Source: Antrihabitans auranticaus (lineage in GTDB: Bacteria > Actinomycetota > Actinomycetes > Mycobacteriales > Mycobacteriaceae). From it: a stretch of 64,000 bases of DNA. Where the stretch lies: NCBI RefSeq assembly GCF_016481275.1, contig NZ_JAEMNW010000005.1, forward strand, positions 248,001 to 312,000, written 5' to 3'. The notes beneath the pieces were generated by a model. It worked only from the letters and a program-made list of their open reading frames with translations. It made no database searches and was not told the DNA's origin. Each line of letters opens with the position of its first letter. Position 1 is the first letter of the stretch. The position numbers and the translations under genes were made by a program. This document shows, one piece after another, positions 47,201 through 64,000 of the stretch.

Positions 47201-50200
47201 CGCGACCGACTCGTGCCGCAGCAACGCCGCCTCGATTTCGCCCAGTTCGATTCGGAAGCCGCGCAATTGCACCTGGGAGTCGCTGCGGCCGGCGTATTCG
47301 AGCTGACCGTCGGAGTTCCAGCGGCCGATGTCGCCGGTGCGGTACATCAGCGCGCCCGGTGCGCCATACGGGTCGGCGACGAACCGGCCCGCCGACAGCC
47401 CAGGACGACGCAGATAGCCGCGCGCCAACTGACCGCCGACCACGTACATCTCCCCCGCGACGCCGATCGGAACCGGATGCAACCGCTGATCGAGCACGTA
47501 CACGCCCAGACCCGGAATTGCACGGCCGATGACGCTCGCGGCACCGCTTGCCGCCGCCGCGGAATCCAGCGCCGAATGGCTGACATGGACGGTGGTTTCG
47601 GTGATGCCGTACATGTTGACCAGCTGCGGGGTGTCGTCCGCGTGCCGTTCGTACCAGCTCTGCAGACGCCGAAGTTCGAGCGCTTCACCACCGAATACGA
47701 CGTACCGCAGTGCGAGTTCCCCGGCGGTCTCCGGTTCGTCGGTCAGGGCGACGCGATCTGCCTCGGCGAGCTGATAGAACGCCGACGGTGTCTGGTTGAG
47801 TACGGTTACCCGTTCTCGCACAAGCAGTTCCCGGAACTCATCGGGCGACCGCGTCGTGAAGTAATCGACGACGACCAGTGCGCCGCCGTGCAGCAGCGGA
47901 CCCCACAGCTCCCACACCGAGAAATCGAAGGCGTAGGAGTGGAACAGCGTCCAGACGTCCGATTCGCCGAAGCCGAACTTGCTCTCGGTATGCGCGAACA
48001 GGCGCACCACGTTTCGGTGCGGGATCAGCACCCCCTTGGGGCGACCGGTCGAGCCCGAGGTGTAGATCACGTACGCAGCGTTTTCGGGCCGCAGCTTGCC
48101 GTTGCGATCGGCATCTGTGACGGGTGCATCGTCGAACGTCTCGGTGTCGCCGACATCGACCACCGGCAGCTCCGCACCCAGACCCGCAGCAGCATCGCCC
48201 TGGGTCATCAGGCAGACCGGTCGGGCGTCGGAGAGCATGAACTCCAGCCGTTCCCGCGGATAGGTCACGTCGATCGGCAGGTAGGCGCCGCCCGCCTTCA
48301 ACACTGCGAGCAGTGCCACGACCAACTCGACCGATCGCGGCAACGCGACGGCGACCAGCGCCTCGGGACCGACGCCCTGCGCAATCAGCTTGCGCGCCAG
48401 CCGGTTCGCGCGCGCATCGAGCTCACCGTAGTTGATCCGGAGCTCGCCGTGCACGAGTGCATCCGACGTAGCGGATCGCCTGACCCGCTCGTCGAACAGT
48501 TGCACCAGAGTCGCGTCGGCAGCGGTGAGCACCGGATCGTTCCATTCGAACAGCACCTGCGCGCGGTCCGCGTCGCCGAGCAACGCGATGTCGCCGGTCG
48601 GCACGGCCGCGTCGCGCACGGCCGCGGCAAGGATCGCCTGGAATCTGTCCACGAATTCGGCGACCGTCGATTCGTCGAACAGTTCGGTCGCATAGGTGAC
48701 CACGCCGAGCAGACCGGCCGGCGCACCGTCTTCGGATGTGTTCTCCGACAACGTGAACTGCAGATCGAACTTGGCCAGATCGATGTCGAATTCGACGCTC
48801 GACACCGTCAGCCCCGGCAGTTCGAGTGCGGCGCGCGCCATGTTCTGGAACGTGAGCATGACCTGGAACAAGGGGTGCCGCGCTTGCGAGCGTTCGGGAT
48901 CGAGGATCTCGACGAGGCGCTCGAAAGGCAGGTCGGCGTTGCCGAACGCACCGATGTCGGTTGCCCGTGCGCGCGTGAGCAATTCGGCGAACGACTCATG
49001 CGGATTGACGTCGGTGCGCAACACGAGTGTGTTGACGAACATCCCGATCAGGCTGTCCAACTGTTCTTCGCCACGCCCGGCGACGGGTGTTCCGATCGCA
49101 ACGTCGGTGGTGTTCGCGGTCCGGGCGAGCAGCACCGCGAGCGCGGCGTGCACAGCCATGAACAGCGTCGAATTGTGTTCGCGGGCAAGCTCGGCAAGCC
49201 CGCCGTGGACCTCCGCTGCGACGGTGAACGAGAAGTTGCCACCGCGATTTCCTGCGATCTGCGGGCGTGGCCGGTCGGTGGGCAGTTCCAGTTCCTGCGG
49301 GAGGCCGGACAGCGTCGTGCGCCAGTAGTCGATCTGCTTCGCGATCAGGGAATTCGCGTCCTGCTCGGAACCGAGTGCTTCGCGTTGCCAGAGTGCGAAA
49401 TCGGCGTACTGCACGGCAAGCGGCGGCCAGTTCGGCTCCGCGCCGTGGCGCTGCGCCTCGTAGGCGACGACCAGGTCCCTGGTCAGCGGGCCCATCGAGA
49501 AGCCGTCACCGCTGATGTGGTGGACCACCACGGTGAGCACATGCTCGTGCGGCGACACCTCGAACAACCGGACGCGAACCGGGATCTCCGACGTGACGTC
49601 GAAGCCACGGAAAGCGAAGTCGCTCACCGCAGCTACAACGGCGTCGGCCGGCACGACGACGGGTGTCAGGTCGGGAACCACGTCCGCGCCCGTACGGATC
49701 TGCTGATACGGCTTGCCGTCTTGCTCGGGGAACACGGTGCGCAGGGATTCGTGCCGCCAGATCACGTCGCCGACGGCAGCTTGCAGTGCAGCGACGTTCA
49801 GGTCACCGGTCAGCCGGATCGCAACCGGCAGGTTGTTGACTGCCGAGTCGGGGTCGAGGCGGTTGAGGAACCACATGCGCTGCTGTGCCAACGACAGTGG
49901 GATCTGCGCGGGCCGGACACGCGGCGCCAGCAACGTCCCGGGTCCGGCATCGGAATGCGCCTCGACGCGTGCGGCGAGTGTCTGCACGGTCGATGCTTCG
50001 AACAGCGTGCGTACGGGGATGCGGGTACCGAGCGCCGCCCCCAGTCGCGCTACCGCCTGCGTCGCGACGAGCGAGTTTCCGCCCAGTGCGAAGAAGTCGT
50101 CGTCGAGACCGACCCGCGCCCCGCCGAGCAGATCTGCGAAGACTCCGGCAACGATCTCTTCGACAGGCGTTGTCGGAGCACGGAATTCGCGCTGCTCGAA

Positions 50201-53200
50201 GGTCGGCTCCGGCAGCGCCTTGCGGTCGAGTTTGCCGGACGAGTTCAGAGGAAACTCGTCGAGCACCACGACCGCAGCGGGGACCATATACGTCGGTAGG
50301 CGGCCGTCGAGCCAGGACACCAGTTCGTCCCCTGCCACAGTCGCACCCGGACCAGGTACGACATAGGAAACCAACTGGTCGCCGGTGACGGTCTGCTGCA
50401 CGACCGCGACTGCCTGCTGCACCGCGGTGTGCCCGAGCAGCGCGGTCTCGATCTCGCCGAGTTCGATCCGCTGGCCGCGGAACTTCACCTGGAAGTCGGT
50501 GCGCCCGATGTACTCCAAGATGCCGTCCCGGCTCCACCGGACCAGGTCACCGGTGCGATACATCCGATCGCCGGAGCCACTGTAGGGATTCGCGACGAAC
50601 CGGTCGGCGGACAGGTCCGGCCGCGTGACATAGCCGCGAGCAAGTTGCACGCCCGCGAGATACAGCTCACCGGGTACGCCGTCGGGAACGGGCTGCAGAC
50701 GACTGTCGAGCACGTATACCGCGCTGTTCCATTCGGGGCGGCCGATGGCGACGATCGGTTCGCGAGTCTGCCGCTCCCCCACACGCGCGGGCCAATAGGT
50801 GATCGAGACCGCAGCCTCGGTCGGACCGTAAAGATTGTGCAGGCCCGCGGAACTCACGGCCGCGAACGCGGAAACAGTCTCCGGTGGCAGCGCCTCACCG
50901 ATGACGAAAACGTGGCGCAGCGACCGCAATTGTGCCGCGTCGACCTGTCCCGCAAAGACGGCCAGCATCGAGGGTACGAAATCGGTGATCGTAACGTGTT
51001 GTGCGGCAATGGTGTCGGCGAGGTAGAGCGGATCACGGTGGCCGTCGGGTGTGGCGACAACCAGGGTGGCGCCGACGCGCAGGGGCATGAAGTAACCCCA
51101 CAGTGACACGTCGAAGGTCGTGGCGGTCTTCTGCAGATAGACGTCCGACGCGTCCAACCGGTACTCGGACTGCATCCAGGCGACCTGGTTCGCGATCGCA
51201 CTGTGCGGAACCGCAACGCCTTTCGGGCGACCGGTCGAGCCGGACGTGAAGATCGCGTACGCGGGATGATCACCGCGAAGAACGGCCCGCCGCTCGTCGG
51301 CTCGGAGCGCGGCAGCAGAGTACGGAGACAGGTCGACGGCATCGATCTCGATGACCGCTCCCGATTCGGCGGCAAAGCCGTCCCGGGTCGTGCTCAATAT
51401 GCATGCCGGCTGTGCGGTGTCGAGGACGTGCGCGATGCGCTCGGCCGGGTGATCGGGATCGATCGGCACGTACGCGCCGCCTGCACGCACGACCGCGTAC
51501 ATCCCGACCACGAGGTCGATCGATCGTCGCATGGCGAGGGCCACAAGCGATTCCGGTCCGACACCGTTCGATATCAGCAGCCGGGCAACCTGATTGACGC
51601 GCGCATCGAACTCGCCATAGGTCAGCTGGTCACCCTCGAATACGACCGCAGGCGCATCGGGTGTCCGCAAGACTTGCGCGTCGAATCCGGCGAGGAGGTA
51701 CTCGTCGGAGACGTCGAAGTCGGTGGCATTGCGTTCGATCAGGAGTTCGCGACGTTCACTCGCATCGAGCAGGTCGATGTCACCGACCGGACGGTCCGAG
51801 TTGGCCGCGACGGCCGAGAGCAGCTGCAACAACCGACCGGCGAGCAACCGTATGGAAGAGTCGTCGAAAAGATCTGTGGCATAGGTGAACAACGCGCCGA
51901 GACTGCCTGGCGAATCGTGCTCCGGGACCGAAATCGTCAGCTGCAGATCGAACTTCGCGAGTACGCCGTCGAACTCGACGGCTTCCACGCGCAGTCCCGG
52001 CAGTTCGAGCTCGGCAGTGCCCATGTTCTGGAAGAACAGCGCCACCTGGAACAACGGGTGATGGGCGGTGGAGCGGACCGGGTCGAGCACCTCCACGAGT
52101 CGCTCGAAAGGCATGTCCGCATGCGTGAAGGCGGCGAGGTCGTCGTCGCGAACCGCTACCAGGAGGTCGGTGAACGACAGCCCCGGATCGACATCGGTCC
52201 GCAGTACGAGGGTGTTGACGAACATGCCGACGAGGTCGTCGAGTGCTTCCTCGCCACGACCCGCGATCGGCGTACCGATCGTGACATCCGTTGTGGCAGA
52301 AACTCGTCCGAGTACGGCAGCGAAGGCCGCGTGGACCACCATGAACAACGACGCCTCGTGATTGCGGCCGAGTTCCTCGAGCGCTTTGCGCAGCGTGTCG
52401 TCGATGACGAATTCGTAGGTCGCACCCGCGTTGGACCCGACCACCGGGCGGGGCCGGTCCAGCGGGAGGTCGATCCGGTCGGGCAGGCCGTCGAGCCGCT
52501 GTCGCCAGTAGGTCAGCTGCTGCGCCGCAAGCGAATTCGGGTTGCTCTCCGCACCGAGCAGGGTGCGTTGCCACAGTGTGTAATCCGCGTATTGCACCGG
52601 CAGTGCCGGCAGGTCCGGTTTGCTACCGCCGAGCCGTGCCAGATAGCTGCCGACCAGGTCGCGCACCATCGGCACCAGTGACGCACCGTCGGCGGCAATG
52701 TGGTGGACAACGATTGCCAGCACGTGTTCTGCCGGACCGACCGCGAGCAGGGCGATCCGCAGCGGGACAGCCGCGGTGACGTCGAAGCCGCGCATCGCGA
52801 AGTCCGTTATCCAGCCGATCAACTCGCTCTCGGCGACCGGCACCGCCGCCAACTCGCTGACGACGTCCGCGGTCGGGAGTACGACCTGGTGACCGATGCC
52901 GCCGTCTTCGGGGTACACGGTTCGCAGCGACTCGTGCCGCTCGATGACATCGCGGACCGCGGCACCGAGGACCGCGGGATCCAGTTCAGAGACCAGCCGA
53001 ATCGCGAAGGGGATGTTGTTCAGTGCCGATGCCGTGTCGAAGCGGTTGAGGAACCACATTCGTTGCTGCGCCAGCGACAACGGAATGTTCTCCGGTCGCG
53101 TCTGCGGTGTGAGGCGTGGCCGACCGCCTTCGCCACGCAATACTTCGACGGCCGTAGCAAGAGCCGACACCGTGCTGGACTCGAATACAAAGCGAGCAGG

Positions 53201-54970
53201 GACGCGCGCATCCAGCTCGGCACCGAGTCGCGCGGCGACTTTCGTTGCGATCAGCGAGTTTCCGCCGAGATCGAAGAAGTCGTCGTCGCGTCCGACCCGC
53301 TCGACGGACAGCACCTGCGAGAAGACGCGGGCAACCAACTCTTCGGCGGCGTTCGCGGGCGGACTGTATTCGCGAACCTCGAAGACAGGTTCCGGCAACG
53401 CATCCCGATCGAGCTTGCCGACCGGGGTCAACGGGATCTTGTCGAGCACCATGAGAACCGTGGGCACCATGTGGACGGGCAACATCCTGCCCACGAACTC
53501 GAGCACCTCGTCGGTGTCGAGGACACGATTCTCGTCGGGCAGCACGTAGGCGACGAGAGCGGTGGTACCGGAAGACGTTTCGCGTCCGATCGTCACGGCA
53601 AAGGCAATGTCGGGATGCGCTGTCAACGCGGCGTCGATCTCGCCGGGCTCGATGCGGAACCCGCGAATCTTCAACTGCGAGTCGTTGCGTCCGACGAACT
53701 CCACTTCGCCGGAATCCCGTAGCCGCACAATGTCTCCGGTGCGGTACATGCGCTCGCCGGGCTCTGCGGCGTACGGATTCGCGACGAAACGCTGGGTCGT
53801 CAACGCGCGCCGCTCGTGGTAACCGCGCGCAAGTTGCAGACCTGACAGATACAGCTCCCCGGCCACTCCGACCGGCACCCGCTGCAGGCGGGCGTCGAGG
53901 ACGAGTGCGGTCATGTTCCGGATCGCCGGACCGATCGTGATCGCCTCGCCGGGCTGCAGCGGATCACTGATGTTGGTCATGATGGTCGTCTCGGTCGGCC
54001 CGTAGCCGTTGAAGAACTCCCGGCCGTGCGCCCAGCGGTTGACCAGTTCAGGCGGGCAGGCTTCGCCACCGACGCAGACCACACGGAACTCGTCGAGACC
54101 CGCTGGATCCACCGACGCCAACGCCGCAGGTGTCACGAAGCCATGGGTGACACGCTGGGCAGCCACGATCGACGCCAGCTCGGCGCCGCCGTAGATTCCC
54201 GGCGGCACGATAACCATCGTCGAGCCGGCGGCAACCGCGAGCAGGAGTTCGAGGACAGACGCATCGAAACTCGGCGACGCGAAATGCAGCGTCCGTGCCT
54301 CTGCCGTCAGGCGATAGCGCTCGCGCTGTTCGGTGCAAAAGTTCGAGAGACCGGATTGCGTCACGACGACACCCTTGGGCAGGCCCGTCGAACCGGACGT
54401 GTAGATCACGTACGCGACGTTCTCGGCGCGCAGCGGCCGGACGCGGTCTGCGTACGAAACGGGTTCGGACGACACGTCCGCCAATTCACTCTCGATCCCC
54501 GCGCCGTCGATGACCAGCCATTCGACGTCGTTCGCCGACACCCGTTCGAGCGCAGCGGCAATGGTCACGCCGATCACGACGCGGGAGTCGCCGACCATGT
54601 GCGCGATGCGATCGGGCGGGTAGTTCGGGTCGACCGGCACGAAGCCCGCACCGGTCTTCGCGACCGCCCAGACAGCGAGGACGGATTCGATCGATCGCGG
54701 AATACCGACCGCGACAAGATCTTCGGGGCCGAGGCCACGGCCGATGAGCACGCGGGCGAGCCGCGACGACTGCGCATCCAGCTCGGCGTAACTGATCTCG
54801 CGACCGTCGAACGAGATGGCGATGCCGGTGGGGTTCATCTCGACTGCGGCGTTCAGCAGGCTCGGCAGCGGCGCGAACGGGTTGCGCCGCTTACGTTCTG
54901 CACCGCGGGCACTCGCGCGCCGTGGCCGCACCGGGCGCGCCGTTTCGTTCGGCTCGTCCCTATCGGTCAT
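41264..54970 (-). CDS. Non-ribosomal peptide synthetase A: A-T-C-A-T-C-A-T-E-C-A-T-TE
   Basis: A 4568-residue terminal NRPS. Approximate domains: A1 30-525, T1 (Ser572), C2 620-1060 (HHIAADG), A2 1075-1590, T2 (Ser1633), C3 1680-2110 (HHISGDG), A3 2145-2660, T3 (Ser2707, GGDSI form that precedes epimerases), E3 2760-3190 (HHLVVDG, EGHGRE, FNYLGRI), C4 3215-3660 (HHVLLDG, DCL-type SPLQAGMYFHAML), A4 3705-4215, T4 (Ser4261), thioesterase about 4310-4568 (GWSLGG, Ser4399; ARHSEL His). Codes read by eye: A1 DALFCGGIM (unassigned), A2 DVWDFILVS (unassigned), A3 and A4 DFWNVGMVH (Thr). It starts directly with an A domain; the matching C domain is on the preceding protein. Product end: X-X-D-Thr-Thr, then release or cyclisation. 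Confidence 0.95.
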   Translation of the reverse strand: MTDRDEPNETARPVRPRRASARGAERKRRNPFAPLPSLLNAAVEMNPTGIAISFDGREISYAELDAQSSRLARVLIGRGLGPEDLVAVGIPRSIESVLAVWAVAKTGAGFVPVDPNYPPDRIAHMVGDSRVVIGVTIAAALERVSANDVEWLVIDGAGIESELADVSSEPVSYADRVRPLRAENVAYVIYTSGSTGLPKGVVVTQSGLSNFCTEQRERYRLTAEARTLHFASPSFDASVLELLLAVAAGSTMVIVPPGIYGGAELASIVAAQRVTHGFVTPAALASVDPAGLDEFRVVCVGGEACPPELVNRWAHGREFFNGYGPTETTIMTNISDPLQPGEAITIGPAIRNMTALVLDARLQRVPVGVAGELYLSGLQLARGYHERRALTTQRFVANPYAAEPGERMYRTGDIVRLRDSGEVEFVGRNDSQLKIRGFRIEPGEIDAALTAHPDIAFAVTIGRETSSGTTALVAYVLPDENRVLDTDEVLEFVGRMLPVHMVPTVLMVLDKIPLTPVGKLDRDALPEPVFEVREYSPPANAAEELVARVFSQVLSVERVGRDDDFFDLGGNSLIATKVAARLGAELDARVPARFVFESSTVSALATAVEVLRGEGGRPRLTPQTRPENIPLSLAQQRMWFLNRFDTASALNNIPFAIRLVSELDPAVLGAAVRDVIERHESLRTVYPEDGGIGHQVVLPTADVVSELAAVPVAESELIGWITDFAMRGFDVTAAVPLRIALLAVGPAEHVLAIVVHHIAADGASLVPMVRDLVGSYLARLGGSKPDLPALPVQYADYTLWQRTLLGAESNPNSLAAQQLTYWRQRLDGLPDRIDLPLDRPRPVVGSNAGATYEFVIDDTLRKALEELGRNHEASLFMVVHAAFAAVLGRVSATTDVTIGTPIAGRGEEALDDLVGMFVNTLVLRTDVDPGLSFTDLLVAVRDDDLAAFTHADMPFERLVEVLDPVRSTAHHPLFQVALFFQNMGTAELELPGLRVEAVEFDGVLAKFDLQLTISVPEHDSPGSLGALFTYATDLFDDSSIRLLAGRLLQLLSAVAANSDRPVGDIDLLDASERRELLIERNATDFDVSDEYLLAGFDAQVLRTPDAPAVVFEGDQLTYGEFDARVNQVARLLISNGVGPESLVALAMRRSIDLVVGMYAVVRAGGAYVPIDPDHPAERIAHVLDTAQPACILSTTRDGFAAESGAVIEIDAVDLSPYSAAALRADERRAVLRGDHPAYAIFTSGSTGRPKGVAVPHSAIANQVAWMQSEYRLDASDVYLQKTATTFDVSLWGYFMPLRVGATLVVATPDGHRDPLYLADTIAAQHVTITDFVPSMLAVFAGQVDAAQLRSLRHVFVIGEALPPETVSAFAAVSSAGLHNLYGPTEAAVSITYWPARVGERQTREPIVAIGRPEWNSAVYVLDSRLQPVPDGVPGELYLAGVQLARGYVTRPDLSADRFVANPYSGSGDRMYRTGDLVRWSRDGILEYIGRTDFQVKFRGQRIELGEIETALLGHTAVQQAVAVVQQTVTGDQLVSYVVPGPGATVAGDELVSWLDGRLPTYMVPAAVVVLDEFPLNSSGKLDRKALPEPTFEQREFRAPTTPVEEIVAGVFADLLGGARVGLDDDFFALGGNSLVATQAVARLGAALGTRIPVRTLFEASTVQTLAARVEAHSDAGPGTLLAPRVRPAQIPLSLAQQRMWFLNRLDPDSAVNNLPVAIRLTGDLNVAALQAAVGDVIWRHESLRTVFPEQDGKPYQQIRTGADVVPDLTPVVVPADAVVAAVSDFAFRGFDVTSEIPVRVRLFEVSPHEHVLTVVVHHISGDGFSMGPLTRDLVVAYEAQRHGAEPNWPPLAVQYADFALWQREALGSEQDANSLIAKQIDYWRTTLSGLPQELELPTDRPRPQIAGNRGGNFSFTVAAEVHGGLAELAREHNSTLFMAVHAALAVLLARTANTTDVAIGTPVAGRGEEQLDSLIGMFVNTLVLRTDVNPHESFAELLTRARATDIGAFGNADLPFERLVEILDPERSQARHPLFQVMLTFQNMARAALELPGLTVSSVEFDIDLAKFDLQFTLSENTSEDGAPAGLLGVVTYATELFDESTVAEFVDRFQAILAAAVRDAAVPTGDIALLGDADRAQVLFEWNDPVLTAADATLVQLFDERVRRSATSDALVHGELRINYGELDARANRLARKLIAQGVGPEALVAVALPRSVELVVALLAVLKAGGAYLPIDVTYPRERLEFMLSDARPVCLMTQGDAAAGLGAELPVVDVGDTETFDDAPVTDADRNGKLRPENAAYVIYTSGSTGRPKGVLIPHRNVVRLFAHTESKFGFGESDVWTLFHSYAFDFSVWELWGPLLHGGALVVVDYFTTRSPDEFRELLVRERVTVLNQTPSAFYQLAEADRVALTDEPETAGELALRYVVFGGEALELRRLQSWYERHADDTPQLVNMYGITETTVHVSHSALDSAAAASGAASVIGRAIPGLGVYVLDQRLHPVPIGVAGEMYVVGGQLARGYLRRPGLSAGRFVADPYGAPGALMYRTGDIGRWNSDGQLEYAGRSDSQVQLRGFRIELGEIEAALLRHESVADAVAIVRSDERTGERLVGYVVPRSGGAVDTTAVSDFVSGFLTDYMVPDVLVVLAELPLTANGKLDRRALPAPSFVGSLASRAPETELEKSIASVFAEVLGLETVGADDSFFALGGDSIVSIQLVSRAKSRGVVFTPRDVFERKTVAGLAEAAQLHAESGAAPVELVELEGGGVGPMPLPPIVSFMVGRGGGFDRYNQSVALELPIGIERSLLVQTVAAVIDRHDVLRAKLTRVEDDWLLVTEPAGSVDVDALVTRLEFDAALDTAAVAALAVSAQDAALGRLDPANGVVLQFVWLDPVGSPTRSGRLVVVAHHLVVDGVSWRILIPDFIAAWGQLSHGQNVALPAVGTSMRRWAHALVERAVAPDLVAQLPFWRATLAGADPALGDRPFDPAIDLAIAVEKIAVSIPADVTEQLLTTVPKLFHGGVNDGLLAALALAVSRWRRDRGIAESSTLLSLEGHGREEGLVPGADLARTVGWFTSIFPVRLDLAGIDLDDAFASGPAAGAAVKAVKEQLAAVPERGVGYGLLRYLNPDTATELGAMAGGQITFNYLGRISADDVPAGFADIGWIPAGDLGDLSGTPDPDMPAMTALDINAIVVGGQLSANFGFPTTLLERADVNELAEHWIAALRALVDHVAQPGAGGLTPSDLPLVSSTQRDVDAWEAHYPAMTDVWPLSPLQAGMYFHAMLAATSVDVYTAQVTVGLDGTVDTLRLRAAAQAVLDRYPNLRTAFLTNYAGEPVQVVLDHVDIDWAETDLTSSSDSDAAVQRLAETERSRRFDLTAPPLLRFRFVTLAPGRFRLIITNHHVLLDGWSMPLLMKDLLVLYATRGDASVLPAPRSYRNFLEWVSRQDADESMAAWRKALAGVDEPTLLAPADRARQITSISGEYRFGLDEAETAELSRFAAQTGVTVNNVVQAAWGVLLGKLTGDEDVVFGTTVSGRPPELPGVEDMVGLFINTLPVRVRCSAADSVATVLEELQASQASLLGHHLVRLADINAVAGAGAQFDTLFVFESYPIDAEGIAAGASSIDGMSLASVESADATHYPVTVIAQLDSTLKLRMTYLTELFDGQAIELLARRYRNVLAQMIARPEAPVGDIDVVESAERTLLLQEWQNPGSEQTEATLLDLFRSWVSASPGAVALVDGADRISYGELSERANRLARRLIRAGVGPDDRVALALGRSADLVVGVLGVLQAGAAYVPLDITHPASRLEFILADSAPVCVVSTSDDLGDFPATTLPVLRIDDDSDTASGEPVADSDRTAPLRPDNLAYIIYTSGSTGRPKGVGVTHRNVVELLRNSQPLFGFDDSDVWTLFHSYAFDFSVWELWGALAYGGRLVIVDYFTTRTPQDFLELLVREQVTFLNQTPAAFYQLAEADRARSQQAELALRHVVFGGEALDLRRLRDWYERRPATPRLVNMYGITETTVHVSFLGLNAELANDAASIIGRGLPGLSVYVLDSRLRPVPVGVPGEVYVTGRQLSRGYLGRPDLAAVRFVANPFGGGDRMYRTGDLARWNADGQLEYAGRSDLQVQLRGFRIELGEIEAALAGCAGVAHAVAVVRSDAGVEDRLVGYVVPQSGASVDPAEVRTAVGEFLTGYMVPDAIVTLDELPLTPNGKLDRKGLPAPEFVSDRPFREPETDVEQAVAAVIADVLDIERIGLDDDFFALGGNSLSAARVAARLRDLTLPDGRPAEFQLQWLFAYRTVADVAQQLTAPSPAAAAGGLGVVLPIRTPDADDAVFCIHPLMGLAWMYTSIAQFVPDGLAVYGVQSPALVDAEWSPESIDAIAERYVDEIRAVRPSGPYRLLGWSLGGVIAHAMAVRLQALGAEVSSLVMLDSVHAIDLDVFSSELADTLLAAGITEASAATLTELTDDQARRLLDSLGADASVTIGQVQRLFATAVRSARLSTTYRPETFAGDLVFVSAEVEHPSAEDAALTWQPYVSGAVVNHPVPARHSELLGPDALSLIGPILAAEGNVR

Positions 54971-55026
54971 CGAGCGACCACTCCCTCAGCGTGAGCTACT
55001 GCCACGATCTTGTCCGCACAAAGCAT
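54967..55026 (-). CDS. 19-residue coupling ORF between the two NRPS genes
   Basis: MLCADKIVAVAHAEGVVAR. Its ATG overlaps the NRPS-B stop (TGATG) and its TGA overlaps the NRPS-A start (ATGA), so the three frames are chained without a gap. The GAGGGAG that should serve NRPS-A lies inside it. It has no similarity I recognise; it could be a leader peptide that hands ribosomes from one NRPS to the next, or a chance frame. Confidence 0.4.
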   Translation of the reverse strand: MLCADKIVAVAHAEGVVAR

Positions 55027-58000
55027 CAGCCATCCTCCGCGTCCGGGGGCGCCGCGGCCTGCATCGAGTCGAGCGTCGCGACCACACGGTCGTCGAACCA
55101 GGCCTCCCCGGCTGGAAGCGGACCGTCGACGACAACAGCCGCGACCAGCTCGAGAGCCTCGGGATCGAGCGCGGCGAGCGATTCGGAGGCGGCAACGAGC
55201 ATCGTGACCTCTGCCTGATCGAGTGCATCGGCGTCCGCGTCCCGTCCGACGAGCACAGCGGTTGCCCCGGACGTGCCTGCTAGGACCAGTTCGACCAGTC
55301 CGGCGAGCCCACCTGGTTCGCCCACGAATGCCGTACGCGATTCGTAGTCGACGAAGGTCCGTTCCCGGACCTCGTCGACTAGCCGCGAAAGCTCGACAAC
55401 CGTCAGCATCGTCCCGGCCGGCGAGACGTAAGCCGGGTCGGTCAGTTGTAGCGCGCGCACGCGGTCGGCGTAGGTGACCGGCCGGGCCGAGAGCGCAGCG
55501 ATGCCGGCCGCGGCCTCGGGGTCGTCGAGCACCAGCCACTGCACTGCACCGAGCCCCGGTGCTGCGGCCAGGCCGGCGACGTCAGCTGCCGTTGTGATAC
55601 CGATTCGCGGGACTTCGGCCGTGAAGGCGGCAGGATTTCGCGGATCGACCGGGACAACGGCAGCGCCGGCCTTCAGCACTGCCCAGAAGGCGATCGATGC
55701 CTCGACCGTGTGCGCGAGCGCGACGAGCACCCCGTCGCCGGGACCCGCACCGAGGTCGATGACCGCGCGACCGACCTGCGAGGAGCGCGCATCGAGCACC
55801 CTGTACGCGGTCTCGTCGTCGTCGACACTCAAAGCCGGTGCCTCGGGGTCGCCCTCGACGGCAGCGGTGAGTTGCTGCACGAGCGCCGCCGCCCCGACCG
55901 ATTCGCTGCGCACCGTTGCCGCAGGTTGCTGCGCCACCTCCATGCGCTGGCGTTCGGCCTCGTCGAGCACGTCGATGTCACCGACCACGACTGCCGAATC
56001 GGCAGCAACTGCTTCGAGAATCCTGCCGAAGCGCCGCGCGAAACCTTGGACCGTCGACTCGTCGAAAAGATCTGTGGCGTAGGTGAACACACCCGCAAAG
56101 CCGGCAGGCGCGCCGTCGGCTGCGTGGCGTGCTTCCAGGGTCAACTGCAGATCGAACTTCGCAACCGCCTCGCCCGCGTCGAGTGCCTGCACTGTCAACC
56201 CTGGCAACTCGATGCGCGCGGGCTCCAGGTTCTGGAATGTCAGCGCAACCTGGAACAGTGGGTTGCGTGACCGTGAGCGTGCCGGTTGCACGGCATCGAC
56301 CACAGACTCGAACGGGATGTCCGCGTTGGCGAACGCCGAGAGGTCGACCTCGCGGGTGCGCTGCACCAGGTCGGCGAACGCCGCTTCCGGCGCCACGTCG
56401 GTGCGCAGCACCAAGGTGTTGACGAACATGCCGACCAAATCGTCGAGTGCGCGCTCGCCACGGCCCGCGATCGGCGAGCCGATGGCGATGTCGGAGCTTC
56501 CGGACAGACGCGACAGTAGTACGGCGAGCGCGGCGTGGACGACCATGAACAGCGACGCATTGTGCTCGCGGGCAATACGATCCAGCCCCGTGTGCGCGGC
56601 AGCCGAGACGTCGAACTGCAGCATCGCTCCGCGCATCGACTGCACTGCCGGCCTCGGCCGGTCCGCGGGCAGATCGAGTTGTTCGGGCACACCGGACAGG
56701 GCCTTGGTCCAGAATTCCAACTGGCGGGCCGCGAGCGAATCCGGATCGTCGACCGTGCCGACTGTGTCACGTTGCCACAGCGTGTAATCCGCGTACTGGA
56801 TCTCCAGCGGCGACCACGCCGGTGCGCCACCGCCGGCACGGGCGGCGTACGCGATCATCATGTCCCGCACGAGCGGAGCCATCGATGCACCGTCGGAAGC
56901 GATGTGATGGACGACGAGCGTCAGCACCAGATCGTTCTCGCCCAGCGCGAAGAGCCCGACCCGCAGCGGCGGCTCCTCGGTGACGTCGAAGCCCCGCGAA
57001 ACCAGGCCGACGACCTGCTCCATCAGCTCCGCTTCGGCGACGGCCACCGGCGTGAGGTCGAGGTCGACCTGTGCGGCAGGCAAAATCTCCTGATGCGGGG
57101 TGTCGCCTGCGACCGGGTACCTGGTTCGCAGCGCCTCGTGCCGCTCGACGACGTCGCCGAATGCCAGCCGCAGCGCGTCGGTGTCCATCGCACCGGTGAG
57201 GCGGATGGCAAACGGAATGTTGTAGGTCGCGGCCTCGGGATCGGCCTGATTGATCACCCACATGCGTTGCTGCGCAAGCGAAAGCGGTATGAGCGCCGGG
57301 CGCTCCGCCGGTATCAGGGCAGCGCGGCGCGGACCGCCGGTCGCGGCGCCCACCCGTGCGGCAAGCGCGGAGACCGTCGATGCCTCGAAGATTTCGCGGA
57401 CACCGATCGACGCGTCGAGCGCATCGTTCAAGCGGGCGACCGCACGCGTAGCGATCAGCGAGTTGCCGCCGAGGGCAAAGAAGTCGTCGTCGAGTCCGAC
57501 CTGCGCAACGCCGAGCAACTCGGCGAACACGTCGGCGACGGCCTGCTCGATCGGCGTGCCGGGCTCACGGAACGCGGCACTGCTCGTGTACTCCGGCGCG
57601 GGAAGTGCCTTGCGATCCAGCTTGCCGTTGGGAGTCAACGGCAGCTCGTCCAGCCGCATGACGGCGTCCGGAAGCATGTAGGCCACAAGGAAGTCCGCGG
57701 CGAACGTGCGAACCTCGGCTGCCTCGACAGTCGAGCCGGACTCGGCCACGACGTAGCCGACGAGGCGGTCGCCGAACTGATCGTCGCTGCGCACGGATGC
57801 GACAGCTTGCGCGACACCGGGATAGCGCAGTAGCGCGGCTTCGATCTCGCCGAGTTCGATTCGGAAACCGCGCAACTGGACCTGCTGGTCGCTGCGGCCC
57901 GCGTACTCGAGTTGACCGTCGCGGTTCCAGCGCGCCACGTCGCCGGTGCGGTACATCCGCGCACCGGGCGCACCGAACGGGTCGGCGACGAAGCGTGCAG

Positions 58001-61000
58001 AGGCGAGGTCGGGGCGCCCGACATAGCCCCGCGAGAGCTGCTTGCCACTGACGTAGACCTCGCCGGGCACACCCACCGGTACCGGCCGCAGGCGCGAATC
58101 CAGCACATAGGTCGCGAGACCCGGCAGACCACGACCGATGACGCTGCCCGCCGCACTCTCGGCGAGCGCACTGTCGAGCGCGAGATAGGACACGTGCACC
58201 GTGGTCTCGGTGATGCCGTACATGTTGACGAGCTGCGGCTGCTGCGGATGCCGCTCGTACCAGCGTCGCAACTGCCGCAAGTCGAGTGCCTCACCGCCGA
58301 AGATCACGTACCGCAACGCAAGCCGCTCCGCAGTTCCGGAAGCGCGGTCCGCCTCGGCAAGCTGATAGAACGCCGACGGCGTCTGGTTGAGGACCGTAAC
58401 CTGCTCGCGGACAAGCAGTTCGAGGAATTGCTCCGGAGATCGCGACGTAAGGTAGTCGACGATCACGACCGTGCCGCCGTGGACGAGCGCGCCCCACGTC
58501 TCCCACACGGAGAAATCGAAGGCGAACGAGTGGAACATGGTCCACACGTCGTTTTCGTCGAAGCCGAAGTGGCCCTGCGTGTTTGCCAAAAGCTCGACCG
58601 CGTTGCGGTGTGTGACAGCAACACCCTTGGGCCGTCCGGTCGAGCCGGACGTGTAGATCACGTAGGCGATGTTGTCCGCACGTAGCGCCGCATGGGACAC
58701 CGCTGAATCGTCGAGTTCTGCCACATCGGCGCCGTCGAGAACCACGACCGGAATATCACCGACAGGCAGCAGTTCACATTCGGCCGCGGTCGTCAGCACG
58801 CAGATCGGTGCGGCATCGCCGAGGATGTAGGTCAACCGATCTGCCGGGTACGTCACGTCCAGCGGCACGTACCCACCGCCGGCCTTCTGCGTCGCCAGCA
58901 TCGCAACGATCTGGTCGGGTCCACGTTCGGTCCCGATCGCGACCAGAGACTCCGGCCCGACACCCACGGCGATCAGCTTGCGGGCGAGCTTGTTCGCGCG
59001 CGCATCGAGTTCGCCGTAGCTGAGCTCGGCGGTGCCGAAACGCAGCGCTACCGAGTCGCCCCGCCGACCGGCCTGAGCTTCGAAGAGACCGATCAAGGTG
59101 CCGTCGCCGACGTCGGCTCCTGGCGTGTTCCACGCCGTGAGCAGCAACGCCCGTTCGGCCGGCGTCGTGAAGTCCAGGTCGCCGACCGCGCGGGTCGCGT
59201 CTGTTGCGGCGGCGTCGAGAATGCGCACGAGTCGCTCCGCGAACCCGGCGACGGTCGCCTCGTCGAAAAGGTCTGTGGCGTAGGTGAAGAACGCGGCAAG
59301 CCCGTCGGTCGTCGAGGGATCGTCGGCGACAGTGAGCTGGAGGTCGAACTTCGCCAACGGCACATCGAAATCGACTGCGCTGACGGCTAGTTCGGGCAGT
59401 TCCAGCCGCTGCTGGGTCATGTTCTGGAACGTCAGCGCCACCTGGAACAACGGCGTGCGAGCCGTCGACCGCACCGGATTCAGCACCTCGACGAGGCGCT
59501 CGAACGGCAGGTCGGCGTGCCCGAACGCCGCAACATCGATATCGCGCACGTCGCCGAGCAGGTCCACGAAGGAGCGATCGGGTTCTATCTCGGTGCGCAA
59601 TACGAGTGTGTTGACGAACATGCCGATCAGGTCGTCGAGCGCGGCCTCACCGCGCCCCGCGATCGGGGTACCGACTGCGATGTCCGTCGTGTTCGAAAGC
59701 CTGGACAGCAGGACCGCCAGTGCCGAGTGCACGACCATGAACAACGTGACGTTGTGCCGGGCCGCCAAGTCCTGCAGACGCTTTCGCAGCGCGGCATCGA
59801 TCGCGAAGACGACGTTCGCACCGCGGTTCGACGCGACTGCGGGACGCGCGTGATCGGTCGGCAGGTCGAGCTGGTCCGGCAACCCGCGCAGGGTCTCGCG
59901 CCAGAACGACTCCTGCTGGGACAGCAGTGATTCCGGGTCGTCGGCCGAGCCGAAGACCGTGCGCTGCCACAGCGTGTAGTCCGCGTATTGCACAGCAAGC
60001 GGCGACCAGTCCGGTCGCTCACCGCGCGCACGCTCGATGTAGGCCGCCATCATGTCGCGCGTCAGCGGTCCCATGGAGAAGCCGTCCGCGCTGATGTGGT
60101 GCACCACGAAGGCAAGTACGTACTCGTCGGCGGTGAGCTGGAAAAGCTTGACTCGTAACGGCGGAGCGGCGGCGACATCGAATCCACCCGCTACGAACGC
60201 ACCGAGAAGAGCCGGAAGCTGCTCGGCCGAGCAAGGTTCCACGTCCACGGCGGGGATCGCATCCGGACCGGACACGACGACCTGCCAGCCCTCGCCATCG
60301 ATCTCCGGGTAGCGGGTGCGCAGGATCTCGTGCCGCTCGACGAGGTCGGTGACCGCCGCACGCAGAGCATCCAGGTCGATTCGTCCGGTCAGCTTGACCG
60401 CGACTGGGATGTTGTAAAGCGGCGACTCCGGTGCAAAGCGGTTGAGGAACCACATCCGCTGCTGCGCCATCGAGAGGGGAACGCGGTCCGGGCGACGCTG
60501 TGGGACCAGGGCAGCCCGGCCGCGGGCACCGACGTGGGATTCCAGCCGGGCCGCGAGCCCGGCCACTGTGGGCGCCTCGAACACCAAGCGGACCGGAACC
60601 TGCGCGTCGGTCGCCGCTCCGAGTCGTGCGGTTACCTGAGTGGCAGAGATCGACGTGCCGCCGAGTTCGAAGAAGTTGTCGTCCAAGCCGACTCGTTCGA
60701 CGTCGAGTACCGCGGCGAAGGTCTCCGCGACCATTTCCTCGATCGGCGTGCTGGGCGGACGATAGGTCTTCGCCTCGAACACCGGTTGTGGCAGCGCTTT
60801 TCGATCCAGTTTGCCACTCGGGTTCAACGGCATCGCGTCGATGACGAGGACAGTCGACGGCACCATGTACGACGGCAACTTCTGTGCCGCACCGGCAATC
60901 ACGGCAGCGGCTTCGACCGACTCCCCCGAACCGGGAACGACGTATCCGACGAGTTGGTCGCCCGTGCGATCGCCGCGGTGCACGACGGCGACCGCTGCGG

Positions 61001-64000
61001 TGACACCCGGGTACGACGCAAGGACCGTCTCGATCTCTCCGAGCTCGATACGCTGCCCGCGTAGCTTGACCTGGAAGTCGGTGCGGCCCAAGTACTCCAG
61101 CGCACCACGTTCGTTCCAGCGCACTAGGTCGCCGGTACGGTACATGCGGTCGCCCGCGTTGCCGTACGGGTTCGCGACGAACCGTTCCGCAGACAGACCC
61201 GATTGGGCGTCGTAGCCACGCGCCAACTGCGCGCCGGCCATGTAGAGCTCACCTGCAAGGCCCACGGGCACCGGCCGCAACCGCTCGTCGAGCACCAACG
61301 CCGCGGAGTTCCAGACCGGTCCGCCGATGGGCACCGGTCCTGCGCTGTCCGGGTCGACCGGCGTCGCGGTCGCGTGCACCGTGTATTCGGTCGGGCCGTA
61401 CAAGTTGAACAGTTCCGCCGAACTGACCCGGTGGAATGCGGCAACGGTGGGACCGGTCAGCGCCTCGCCTGCGACGAGCAGCGCGCGCAGCGAATCGACG
61501 GCGCCCGGCCGGATACCACCGGCGAACACCGACAGCATCGACGGCACGAACGACGTGATCGTCACCCGTTCGGCCGCAATGACGTCGGCGAGGTACGCCG
61601 GGTCCCGGTGCCCGTCGGGCGTCGCGATGACCAGGCGGGCGCCCGCGACGAGGGTGCCGAACAGTTCCCACACCGAGACGTCGAACGTTGCGGGGGTCTT
61701 CAGCAACACAGCATCGTCCGGGCCCAGCCCGTATTCGGCTACGAGCCAGCGGACTTGGTTGACAACTGCGCTGTGCCGCACGACGACGCCCTTGGGACGA
61801 CCCGTCGACCCCGACGTGAACAACACGTACGCGGCGTTTTCGGGACGAAGCGGCGCAAGGCGTTCGGCGTCCGACACCGGGGTCGCCTGGAAGTCGGAAA
61901 GGTCCAGCTCGTCGACGAGTTCGACCGAGTCGGCAGCGAAACCGTCCCCCCGCGTGGACAGGACGACGAGCGGCGCCGCCATCTCCAGCACGTACTCGGT
62001 GCGCTCCGCCGGGTGATCCGGATCGACAGCGACGTACGCGCCGCCTGCCTCGAGCACTGCATACATCGAGACGAGGAGGTCCAGGGAGCGGCGCATCGCA
62101 AGGCCGACCCGGACCTCCGGTCCGACGCCCTGCGCGATCAGCCAGTGCGCCAACCGGTGTACCCGCTCACCGAACTCGCGATAGCTCAGCTGCACTCCGA
62201 CGCCGGGCACGGTCACAGCAACGGCATGCGGTGTACGCGTCAGGCTTTCGGCGAGCACGCCTGTCAAGGTCTGCGGTCCCTCGATGACGGCTGCGGTCGC
62301 GTTCCAGTCGTGCAGGACCCGTTGCCGCTCGGCGTCGTCGAGCAGGTCGATATCGGCGACCGGCAACTCGGGATCGGCGACGACAGTCGAGATGACCCGA
62401 GTCAGTTTGCCTGCCAGATCGGCAATTTCGGCCTCGTCGAAGATCTCTCGCAGGAACTGCAGGGTTATCTCGACCCGCGCGGCCACCACGGCAAGCACGG
62501 TCAGCGGATAGTGCGTCACCGTCGTGAGGTCGACACCGGTGATCTGCATGCCTTCGATGACGCTCGCCGCCGCGATACCAGCGGTGTCGACCGGGTAGGA
62601 CTCGTACACGAACAGCGTGTCGAATTCCGCGCCCGGACCCGCGTCGGCAACGATGTCGGCGAGACCGAGGTAGTGATGCCCGAGCAGGGTCGCCTGTTCG
62701 GACTGCACGCGCGACAACAGTTGCGAGACAGAATCTCCCGCATCGACGCGCACCCGCACCGGGACCGTGTTGATGAAGAGGCCGACCATGGACTCGACGC
62801 CGGTCAGCTCCGGTGGGCGGCCCGACACGGTGGCGCCGAAAACGACGTCGTCGCGGCCGACAAGTCGTCCGAGCAGAATCGCCCACGCGCACTGCAGGAC
62901 GGTGTTGACGGTGACGCCGGTCGCGACTGCGAACTGCTTGAGCGCTGCGGTGAGTGCCTCGTCGAGTTCGAACGTGTGCTCGCCGGACAGCGCCGTGATG
63001 ACGCGGCTCGAATCGCGCTGAGCCAGCAGCGTCGGCTCGCTGACACCTGCCAGCGATTCCCGCCACGCGAGCCGGCCCTGCGCCTCGTCTTGTTCCGAAA
63101 GCCATTCCAGGTAGCGGCGATACGGGCGAACAGGCTCGAGCACACTGCGATCGCCGCCGGTCGCGTACAGCACCAGTAGGTCTTTCATGAGCAACGGCAT
63201 CGACCAGCCGTCGAGCAGGATGTGGTGGTTGGTGACCACCAGTCGGTAGCGGCTACCGCCGAGCGCAGCCAGGATGAACCGCATGAGCGGTGGCTGCGCC
63301 ATGTCGAATCGGTTGCGCCGGTCCGCTTCCAGCAACGCGTCGAAGGCGGCGTCCGGATCCGGTTCGCCGCTCAGATCGACGTCGGTCCACGGGATCTCGA
63401 CGGATTCGAGCACGACCTGAACTGCCGCACCGGCAGCGTCGGTGACGAACGCGGTGCGCAAATTCGCGTACCGGTCGAGTACCGCCTGGCCTGCGCCGCG
63501 TAGTCGGTCAGCGTCGATGGAACCTTCGACCGCGAGCACGACCTGGGAGGTGTAGACGTCGAGCGATGTGCTCGCCAGTAACGAGTGGAAGAAGAACCCG
63601 GACTGCAGCGGGGACAGCGACCACACATCGGAGAGGGCCGGGAAGTGCGCTTCCCAGGCGTCGATATCGGGCTGCCCGACGTCGACCAACGGCAGGTCGG
63701 ACGGCGTCCGGCCGCCACCGTCAGCGGAACGGGCGTGCTGGACAACAGCGTCCAGCACCGACACCCACAGGTCGGCGAGCTCTTGCACATCGTCGCGCTC
63801 GAGGAGGCCACGCGGAAACGCGAACGTCGCGGACAATTCGCGGTCGGTGAAGATCGTGTTGATATCGACGACGGCGAGCGCGGGCATGTCGGCGTCGGCG
63901 CGCGCGGGAAGATCACCGAGATCGCCCGCGGGCGTCCACCCGAGATCGCGGACCCCTTCCGGCAACTCTCCAGCGGAGATCCTGCCGAGGTAGTTGAAAC
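55026..64000 (-). CDS. Non-ribosomal peptide synthetase B (partial): E-C-A-T-C-A-T-C-A*
   Basis: The frame is open past the right edge; the first visible residues (FNYLGRI) are the end of an epimerisation domain. Then come a DCL-type C (SPLQSGFFFHSLL, HHILLDG; about 63680-62400), A (about 62290-60750), T (GGTS, Ser codon 60653-60651), LCL-type C (HHISADG; about 60500-59200), A (about 59100-57600), T (GGNS, Ser codon 57461-57459), LCL-type C (HHIASDG; about 57310-55990), and a degenerate A-like tail (55029-55890). Codes by eye: first A DVWSLALVH (unassigned), second A DFWNIGMVH (Thr). In-window contribution: after a D-residue, X-Thr, with the last C serving the A1-T1 of NRPS-A. No MbtH-like protein is in the window. 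Confidence 0.95.
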   Translation of the reverse strand, partial: FNYLGRISAGELPEGVRDLGWTPAGDLGDLPARADADMPALAVVDINTIFTDRELSATFAFPRGLLERDDVQELADLWVSVLDAVVQHARSADGGGRTPSDLPLVDVGQPDIDAWEAHFPALSDVWSLSPLQSGFFFHSLLASTSLDVYTSQVVLAVEGSIDADRLRGAGQAVLDRYANLRTAFVTDAAGAAVQVVLESVEIPWTDVDLSGEPDPDAAFDALLEADRRNRFDMAQPPLMRFILAALGGSRYRLVVTNHHILLDGWSMPLLMKDLLVLYATGGDRSVLEPVRPYRRYLEWLSEQDEAQGRLAWRESLAGVSEPTLLAQRDSSRVITALSGEHTFELDEALTAALKQFAVATGVTVNTVLQCAWAILLGRLVGRDDVVFGATVSGRPPELTGVESMVGLFINTVPVRVRVDAGDSVSQLLSRVQSEQATLLGHHYLGLADIVADAGPGAEFDTLFVYESYPVDTAGIAAASVIEGMQITGVDLTTVTHYPLTVLAVVAARVEITLQFLREIFDEAEIADLAGKLTRVISTVVADPELPVADIDLLDDAERQRVLHDWNATAAVIEGPQTLTGVLAESLTRTPHAVAVTVPGVGVQLSYREFGERVHRLAHWLIAQGVGPEVRVGLAMRRSLDLLVSMYAVLEAGGAYVAVDPDHPAERTEYVLEMAAPLVVLSTRGDGFAADSVELVDELDLSDFQATPVSDAERLAPLRPENAAYVLFTSGSTGRPKGVVVRHSAVVNQVRWLVAEYGLGPDDAVLLKTPATFDVSVWELFGTLVAGARLVIATPDGHRDPAYLADVIAAERVTITSFVPSMLSVFAGGIRPGAVDSLRALLVAGEALTGPTVAAFHRVSSAELFNLYGPTEYTVHATATPVDPDSAGPVPIGGPVWNSAALVLDERLRPVPVGLAGELYMAGAQLARGYDAQSGLSAERFVANPYGNAGDRMYRTGDLVRWNERGALEYLGRTDFQVKLRGQRIELGEIETVLASYPGVTAAVAVVHRGDRTGDQLVGYVVPGSGESVEAAAVIAGAAQKLPSYMVPSTVLVIDAMPLNPSGKLDRKALPQPVFEAKTYRPPSTPIEEMVAETFAAVLDVERVGLDDNFFELGGTSISATQVTARLGAATDAQVPVRLVFEAPTVAGLAARLESHVGARGRAALVPQRRPDRVPLSMAQQRMWFLNRFAPESPLYNIPVAVKLTGRIDLDALRAAVTDLVERHEILRTRYPEIDGEGWQVVVSGPDAIPAVDVEPCSAEQLPALLGAFVAGGFDVAAAPPLRVKLFQLTADEYVLAFVVHHISADGFSMGPLTRDMMAAYIERARGERPDWSPLAVQYADYTLWQRTVFGSADDPESLLSQQESFWRETLRGLPDQLDLPTDHARPAVASNRGANVVFAIDAALRKRLQDLAARHNVTLFMVVHSALAVLLSRLSNTTDIAVGTPIAGRGEAALDDLIGMFVNTLVLRTEIEPDRSFVDLLGDVRDIDVAAFGHADLPFERLVEVLNPVRSTARTPLFQVALTFQNMTQQRLELPELAVSAVDFDVPLAKFDLQLTVADDPSTTDGLAAFFTYATDLFDEATVAGFAERLVRILDAAATDATRAVGDLDFTTPAERALLLTAWNTPGADVGDGTLIGLFEAQAGRRGDSVALRFGTAELSYGELDARANKLARKLIAVGVGPESLVAIGTERGPDQIVAMLATQKAGGGYVPLDVTYPADRLTYILGDAAPICVLTTAAECELLPVGDIPVVVLDGADVAELDDSAVSHAALRADNIAYVIYTSGSTGRPKGVAVTHRNAVELLANTQGHFGFDENDVWTMFHSFAFDFSVWETWGALVHGGTVVIVDYLTSRSPEQFLELLVREQVTVLNQTPSAFYQLAEADRASGTAERLALRYVIFGGEALDLRQLRRWYERHPQQPQLVNMYGITETTVHVSYLALDSALAESAAGSVIGRGLPGLATYVLDSRLRPVPVGVPGEVYVSGKQLSRGYVGRPDLASARFVADPFGAPGARMYRTGDVARWNRDGQLEYAGRSDQQVQLRGFRIELGEIEAALLRYPGVAQAVASVRSDDQFGDRLVGYVVAESGSTVEAAEVRTFAADFLVAYMLPDAVMRLDELPLTPNGKLDRKALPAPEYTSSAAFREPGTPIEQAVADVFAELLGVAQVGLDDDFFALGGNSLIATRAVARLNDALDASIGVREIFEASTVSALAARVGAATGGPRRAALIPAERPALIPLSLAQQRMWVINQADPEAATYNIPFAIRLTGAMDTDALRLAFGDVVERHEALRTRYPVAGDTPHQEILPAAQVDLDLTPVAVAEAELMEQVVGLVSRGFDVTEEPPLRVGLFALGENDLVLTLVVHHIASDGASMAPLVRDMMIAYAARAGGGAPAWSPLEIQYADYTLWQRDTVGTVDDPDSLAARQLEFWTKALSGVPEQLDLPADRPRPAVQSMRGAMLQFDVSAAAHTGLDRIAREHNASLFMVVHAALAVLLSRLSGSSDIAIGSPIAGRGERALDDLVGMFVNTLVLRTDVAPEAAFADLVQRTREVDLSAFANADIPFESVVDAVQPARSRSRNPLFQVALTFQNLEPARIELPGLTVQALDAGEAVAKFDLQLTLEARHAADGAPAGFAGVFTYATDLFDESTVQGFARRFGRILEAVAADSAVVVGDIDVLDEAERQRMEVAQQPAATVRSESVGAAALVQQLTAAVEGDPEAPALSVDDDETAYRVLDARSSQVGRAVIDLGAGPGDGVLVALAHTVEASIAFWAVLKAGAAVVPVDPRNPAAFTAEVPRIGITTAADVAGLAAAPGLGAVQWLVLDDPEAAAGIAALSARPVTYADRVRALQLTDPAYVSPAGTMLTVVELSRLVDEVRERTFVDYESRTAFVGEPGGLAGLVELVLAGTSGATAVLVGRDADADALDQAEVTMLVAASESLAALDPEALELVAAVVVDGPLPAGEAWFDDRVVATLDSMQAAAPPDAEDG
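55029..55890 (-). other. Decayed, truncated adenylation domain at the C-terminus of NRPS-B
   Basis: About 285 residues that align by eye with the first half of A1 in NRPS-A: WLVLDDPEAAAGIAALSARP and VTYADRVRALQL match WLVIDGAG...SSEP and VSYADRVRPLRA. The ATP-loop motif (TSGSTGxPKG) is replaced by YVSPAGTMLTV. The region ends before the GYGPTE, TGD, hinge and catalytic-Lys motifs, and no carrier domain follows. It cannot adenylate an amino acid by known mechanism. It may be a relic of a C|A split or a docking segment. Confidence 0.8.

Follow-up and report, generated by a model that had tools for sequence, protein, structure and literature searches.

The 64,000-nucleotide window analysed here (Antrihabitans auranticaus contig NZ_JAEMNW010000005.1, or C20, positions 248001-312000; C20 coordinates are used for parts beyond the window) covers part of a line of three consecutive nonribosomal peptide synthetase (NRPS) genes, NC, NRPS-B (NB) and NRPS-A (NA), which follow one another on the minus strand of a 6.5 Mb genome rich in NRPS. 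At the NRPS-B/NRPS-A junction, a module of condensation (C), adenylation (A) and carrier (T) domains is split between two proteins, and the A-derived tail that ends the upstream subunit, here termed A*, is probably a docking domain that arose from an inactivated A domain and rebuilds the module across the two polypeptides. The upstream subunit ends in C-A*, and the downstream one starts with an arginine-rich tail followed by A1-T1. In the proposed mechanism, A*, an acidic, compact α/β half of an A core without the ATP site, would bind the core of A1 with the aid of the arginine-rich tail, and the binding would hold A1-T1 beside the upstream C domain, allowing the module to work over two proteins. 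The use of different A*/A1 classes from one junction to the next would preserve the order of the subunits, and in Nocardia it would let the products of distant genes find each other.

The layout at the junction, as seen by Pfam and motif reading, is that described in the first-pass annotation (Table 1). The stop codon of NRPS-B lies at position 55026, and its last Pfam Condensation domain is followed by 299 residues which match the opening portion of an A domain, the alignment extending through a 'VTHxF...LDDLxVVV' stretch. The SGTTGxPK ATP loop (motif A3), the motifs A5-A10 and the C-terminal subdomain of a functional adenylation domain are all absent from A*, and no carrier follows it, which bears out the earlier description of a dead tail. 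NRPS-A has no C domain ahead of A1, and its first domain is a complete A with A3, A7 and A10 all present, followed by T. The A* tails are 37-39% identical to A1 domains and give partial Pfam AMP-binding matches at both junctions of the line. The second of these, between NC and NB, lies beyond the window (C20:319818-320741 / 319678) and has the same form, with NC ending in C-A* and NB starting with an arginine-rich tail, A and T. The first-pass annotation had also placed A* nearest to A1 of NRPS-A; this holds among the full A domains in the window (37% over 274 residues, 1e-35), but A1 of NRPS-B, beyond the window, is equally similar, and the A* of the NC/NB junction is slightly closer by identity (38%).

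The arrangement had at first been taken as unique, a view that the neighbouring junction and the relatives overturn, and the C-A*/A-T junction is in fact the rule rather than an oddity. Related genomes were searched for it with a profile (201 genomes of the family) and by scanning named genomes, which together yielded about 100 A* tails (101 counted, representing 85 distinct sequences) from at least seven genera; the hosts include Antrihabitans, Aldersonia, Nocardia, Rhodococcus, Prescottella, their relatives and further genera, and within Antrihabitans all three other genomes carry A* at these junctions. In every A* counted (n=101) the upstream frame stops at most 38 residues past A*, and the ATP loop is missing from all of those that score above 200 bits. 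At 92 of the 101 loci the gene directly after A* is A-first, in most cases with an arginine-rich tail, and a conserved pair of elements is thus found at the ends of consecutive subunits, as is characteristic of docking domains. The nine exceptions comprise two long-gap cases in Antrihabitans, five class-I A* in Nocardia and two truncated copies; at locus L099, in a relative within Antrihabitans, some 9 kb and another gene separate A* from the A-first gene, which is on the opposite strand. Outside the family, no A* was detected either among 399 genomes sampled across the order (E 1e-70) or among 346 sampled across the phylum, an absence that applies at the thresholds used; the single extra-family match of the phylum-wide sample at E 1e-45 (G785) has a score, 163 bits, like that of a full A domain and was left unread.

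The features of the pair are in accord with a docking role. First, A* is strongly acidic, with a net charge of -8.8 per 100 residues against -3.1 in A1, and contains a conserved stretch, VEDDPEAPA. Next, the tail ahead of A1 is usually of the form RxRPxRxxRxR and is placed before LPQL; at locus L272 (from 3327, minus strand) it carries an array of RPER-type repeats (APRPERAPRPERASRPER...). Finally, the catalytic parts on both sides are largely kept, HHxxxDG being present in 71 of 81 upstream C domains and the A3-A10 core motifs and T in most A1, and the split module therefore looks able to work. The earlier claim of a C/A-T module divided over two proteins is supported, and the docking or A-binding role then suggested for A* is likely.

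The NC/NB and NB/NA junctions carry different classes of A* and A1, and across the tree the class of A* agrees with that of A1 with one exception (L067). In many Nocardia a class-I A1 starts a gene without an adjoining NRPS, and a class-I A* ends a gene without an adjoining A-first gene; if the two are partners, both should be found in the same genomes. Class-I A* was found in all 17 Nocardia genomes picked because they had either a class-I A1 or an A* on its own (five were picked for A* itself), and genus-wide in 87 of 98 genomes, in single copy in all but one of these and often as the end of a giant NRPS whose reading frame runs to about 14,600 aa. Class-I A1 itself occurs in 98 of 98. In 13 near-complete Nocardia genomes the two are separated by 1.45-2.1 Mb (circular distances, with rounded genome sizes), and we infer that the giant NRPS and the distant class-I A1 NRPS form one assembly line. 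If true, two Nocardia clusters that are annotated separately would be one assembly line making one peptide.

That the giant NRPS and the class-I A1 NRPS of Nocardia instead belong to separate pathways, with A* serving otherwise there, falls short of being probable but has to be taken seriously. In a survey of the genus, gene cluster family (GCF) 6, a conserved family of NRPS that includes a nitropropane dioxygenase, counts as a pathway of its own (PMC7413640), and in the Nocardia genome G937 a nitronate monooxygenase gene stands just upstream of the class-I A1 gene; the distance between the genes also favours separation, as does the presence of class-I A1 in all 98 genomes, the 11 without class-I A* included. 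However, in Antrihabitans, Aldersonia and Nocardia G959 the two genes of the pair are neighbours or almost so, class-I A* is kept in most of the genus with no other acceptor adjoining where examined, and the genomes without it include those whose following junction has lost motifs of C or A1. An asparagine synthase gene is found near the giant NRPS. In N. altamirensis (G885; G964 in the genus-wide search) three class-I A* copies are present (C15:182918-183682, C74:49588-50346 and C21:13049-13813), and one copy, L265, has an A-first gene about 150 bases downstream.

The structure of A* was predicted with its C domain and with A1. In an AlphaFold2 model of C-A* with a mean predicted local distance difference test (pLDDT) score of 89.9, the A* region is mostly above 90 and forms a compact α/β domain, which suggests that A* folds; its placement relative to C is unsure, with a predicted template modelling score (pTM) of 0.66. 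The nearest solved relatives of A* by sequence are ordinary A domains, such as those of LgrA and TycA. A pseudo-complex of A*, read-through linker and A1 from Nocardia elegans, in which the two domains were joined by reading through the stop codons, reached a pTM of 0.85 in one construct with 27 paired sequences, with the linker of about 55 residues disordered and A1 matching solved A cores at 1.6 Å. By a rough estimate of our own, a pTM of about 0.55 would be expected for two such domains without a defined contact, and the model suggests that A* and A1 make one.

The models also bear on whether A* could be a mere cap, that is, a leftover A core which lends stability to the last C domain at its C-terminal face and takes no part in recognising the next subunit. 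This is unlikely, although C and A cores usually share a platform, as in NRPS structures like that of SrfA-C, and A* is always fused to C and folds well. The canonical C:A platform is not reproduced in the C-A* model, which departs from known C-A structures by a root-mean-square deviation of 18-20 Å over both domains, though the domain placement in the model is uncertain. The pTM of the A*-A1 model likewise speaks against a cap, as do the occurrence of A* with an A-first partner and the way in which A* classes track partner classes. Furthermore, in two Nocardia species, N. pneumoniae and N. amamiensis (L174 from 4456 and L166 from 4484, both plus strand), the downstream subunit has a dead A half as well: it opens with an arginine-rich tail and this second dead half, and a full ordinary A domain follows. 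The docking half and the catalytic A domain appear to have become separated in these two species, and docking would have been kept where catalysis by A1 was lost.

The possibility that A* is a functionless, decaying remnant of a broken module can be weighed against its history, and is very improbable. All catalytic motifs of the second half are gone and its ratio of nonsynonymous to synonymous change exceeds that of its neighbours, as decay would have it, yet some 100 A* of much the same length have stayed open across at least seven genera, and A* is retained even where the partners are unlinked. Trees built on the shared region place all A* together in a single clade (34 rows, SH-like approximate likelihood ratio test (SH-aLRT) support 100; 43 rows, support 97), and none pairs with its own downstream A1. 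Because of this single clade without grouping with neighbouring A1 domains, A* is traced to a single, ancient origin, after which the junction was inherited, and not to local duplication or decay. A partial duplication at the time when this gene broke, as put forward in the first-pass annotation, is not supported, and local duplication from A1 of NRPS-A is rejected by these trees. The A1 domains are part of a wider A subfamily which is also found inside proteins, and the A1 type alone is therefore no marker of the junction.

The substitution ratios point in the same direction. Ratios of nonsynonymous to synonymous substitution (dN/dS), obtained by the Nei-Gojobori method with our own script over 82 close comparisons, not all of them independent, have a median of 0.25 (0.10-0.42) for A*, 0.17 for C and 0.12 for A1. 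By this measure, A* is under purifying selection that is weaker than in its neighbours and far from neutral, and a neutral relic is rejected; the proposed check on the ratio thus turned out in favour of constraint. An assembly or sequencing error that split one gene is ruled out for all practical purposes by the discontinuous reading frames and by the same layout at two junctions and about 100 loci in independent assemblies, one of them with its partner on the opposite strand.

Several observations nevertheless weigh against the docking of A* onto A1. The pTM of the pseudo-complex is a prediction from a single construct, without predicted aligned errors, coordinates or a control pair. A* is less constrained than either C or A1, and class-I A1 is found also in the 11 Nocardia genomes without class-I A*. 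Arginine-rich tails occur also on A-first subunits that follow thioesterase-ended genes or have no neighbouring NRPS, and since they are present without an adjacent A* the tail cannot serve as a diagnostic mark. The view of the tail as the only and specific signal for docking is weakened further by its absence in Hoyosella. There the upstream subunit (L162:3-3389, plus strand) ends in a longer degenerate A domain, A' (about 400 aa), which has lost the ATP loop and the C-terminal subdomain, and the downstream A-first gene has no arginine-rich tail. On the tree A' is sister to A* on a long branch, and it may represent an earlier stage of A*.

Loss of catalysis with retention of both ends is also seen in a Nocardia clade (L097, L133, L180, L203 and L205), where the C domain before A* is without HHxxxDG and A1 is without the ATP loop, A8 and the carrier; three of these loci (L097, L133 and L180) then continue with a long disordered region and a C-like domain, and the proteins of the clade are still under purifying selection. 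The reading of L097, L133, L180 and L203 as pure docking was downgraded, and less weight is given to the clade, since its genomes also lack class-I A* and the pathway has possibly changed. Another case of altered catalysis is locus L152 of N. altamirensis (from 3198, plus strand), where the ATP loop of a class-I A1 is disrupted and its A8-A9 region deleted, but T is kept; this module may be fed by another A domain.

Docking of this kind seems not to be on record, as no description of an A*-type system was found among the papers of an open-access library searched in full text, with subscription journals and preprints outside the scope, and a review of the field lists no NRPS docking type at the boundary between C and A (PMC9113145). 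The known NRPS types, namely COM, PAX and beta-hairpin docking (PMC9113145), differ from A* in place and form. COM domains, as in TycA/TycB and SrfA-B/SrfA-C (PMC9113145), are like A* a pair of C-terminal and N-terminal elements thought to set the order of subunits, but they join an epimerization (E) domain to C through a short helix together with a hand on C, whereas A* is a folded pseudo-A of 285 residues which would join C to A inside one module; here the donor ends in C-A* and the acceptor starts with an arginine-rich tail and then A. In beta-hairpin docking with short linear motifs, known from NRPS and from hybrids of polyketide synthase (PKS) and NRPS, one side is a short charged peptide, a part that the arginine-rich tail may play. 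However, the receptor in that system is a hairpin before a C or similar domain, with an acidic motif at the C-terminal end of the upstream subunit, whereas here the motif is N-terminal, before A, and the receptor would be a dead A domain; the downstream subunit starts without C or hairpin, and the upstream end is a folded domain. Split-module docking in trans-acyltransferase (trans-AT) PKS, by four-helix bundles and DHD domains, resembles A* in acting inside a module and not between modules, but it belongs to another class of enzymes, in which a catalytic domain is bound by small helical elements or motifs, and uses no relic of a catalytic domain. Ordinary NRPS A domains resemble A* in the first half of the core, both in sequence and in predicted fold; A*, in contrast, is without the ATP loop, A5-A10 and the C-terminal subdomain, is strongly acidic and is always protein-terminal.

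Docking domains decide which NRPS proteins cooperate and serve as tools for engineering. The A* class spans a family rich in unexplored peptides and would give a sequence rule for pairing subunits when gene order fails, and A* would be a clear case of a catalytic domain turned connector. Our belief and doubt are evenly balanced on the fullest form of the proposal, namely a docking class made of a pseudo-A and an A partner, with at least two classes per line, which acts inside the module and joins subunits some 1.7 Mb apart in most Nocardia.

Table 1 The NRPS line and the parts of the split module. Positions are those of the window unless given as C20 coordinates.
Feature	Position	Strand	Description
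NC	beyond window	-	at least 10,020 aa, runs off contig end; C-terminal end C-A*
NRPS-B (NB), upstream subunit	55026..64000, continues past window; full frame C20:303026-319678	-	about 5550 aa, A-T-E ... C-A*
Last C domain of NRPS-B	55941..57290 (approximate, Pfam Condensation)	-	HHIASDG intact; C half of the split module
A* plus linker	55029..55925	-	299 aa up to stop codon; A-derived, proposed docking domain
Intergenic gap NRPS-B/NRPS-A	54971..55025	-	55 bases; reading frames discontinuous
NRPS-A (NA), downstream subunit	41264..54970	-	4568 aa; starts A-T; 4 A domains, 4 C-type domains, terminal thioesterase
N-terminal arginine-rich tail of NRPS-A, MTDRDEPNETARPVRPRRASARGAERKRRNPFAPLPSLL	54860..54970	-	proposed accessory docking element
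A1 of NRPS-A	53395..54860 (Pfam core 53816-54850)	-	complete adenylation domain; proposed partner of A*
T1 of NRPS-A	53156..53370	-	GGNSL; carrier half of the split module

Elsewhere in the host genome (G000), beyond the window, short frames of 139-189 aa (C12:277646-277942, C12:289598-289891 and C18:405569-405793) match just the first hundred positions of the AMP-binding profile and are loose A-domain fragments. Within the window, the thioesterase-ended NRPS-A is immediately followed by a putative esterase gene (40073-41128, minus strand), and a sulfotransferase gene lies farther along (34891-35850, minus strand); both are possible tailoring genes.

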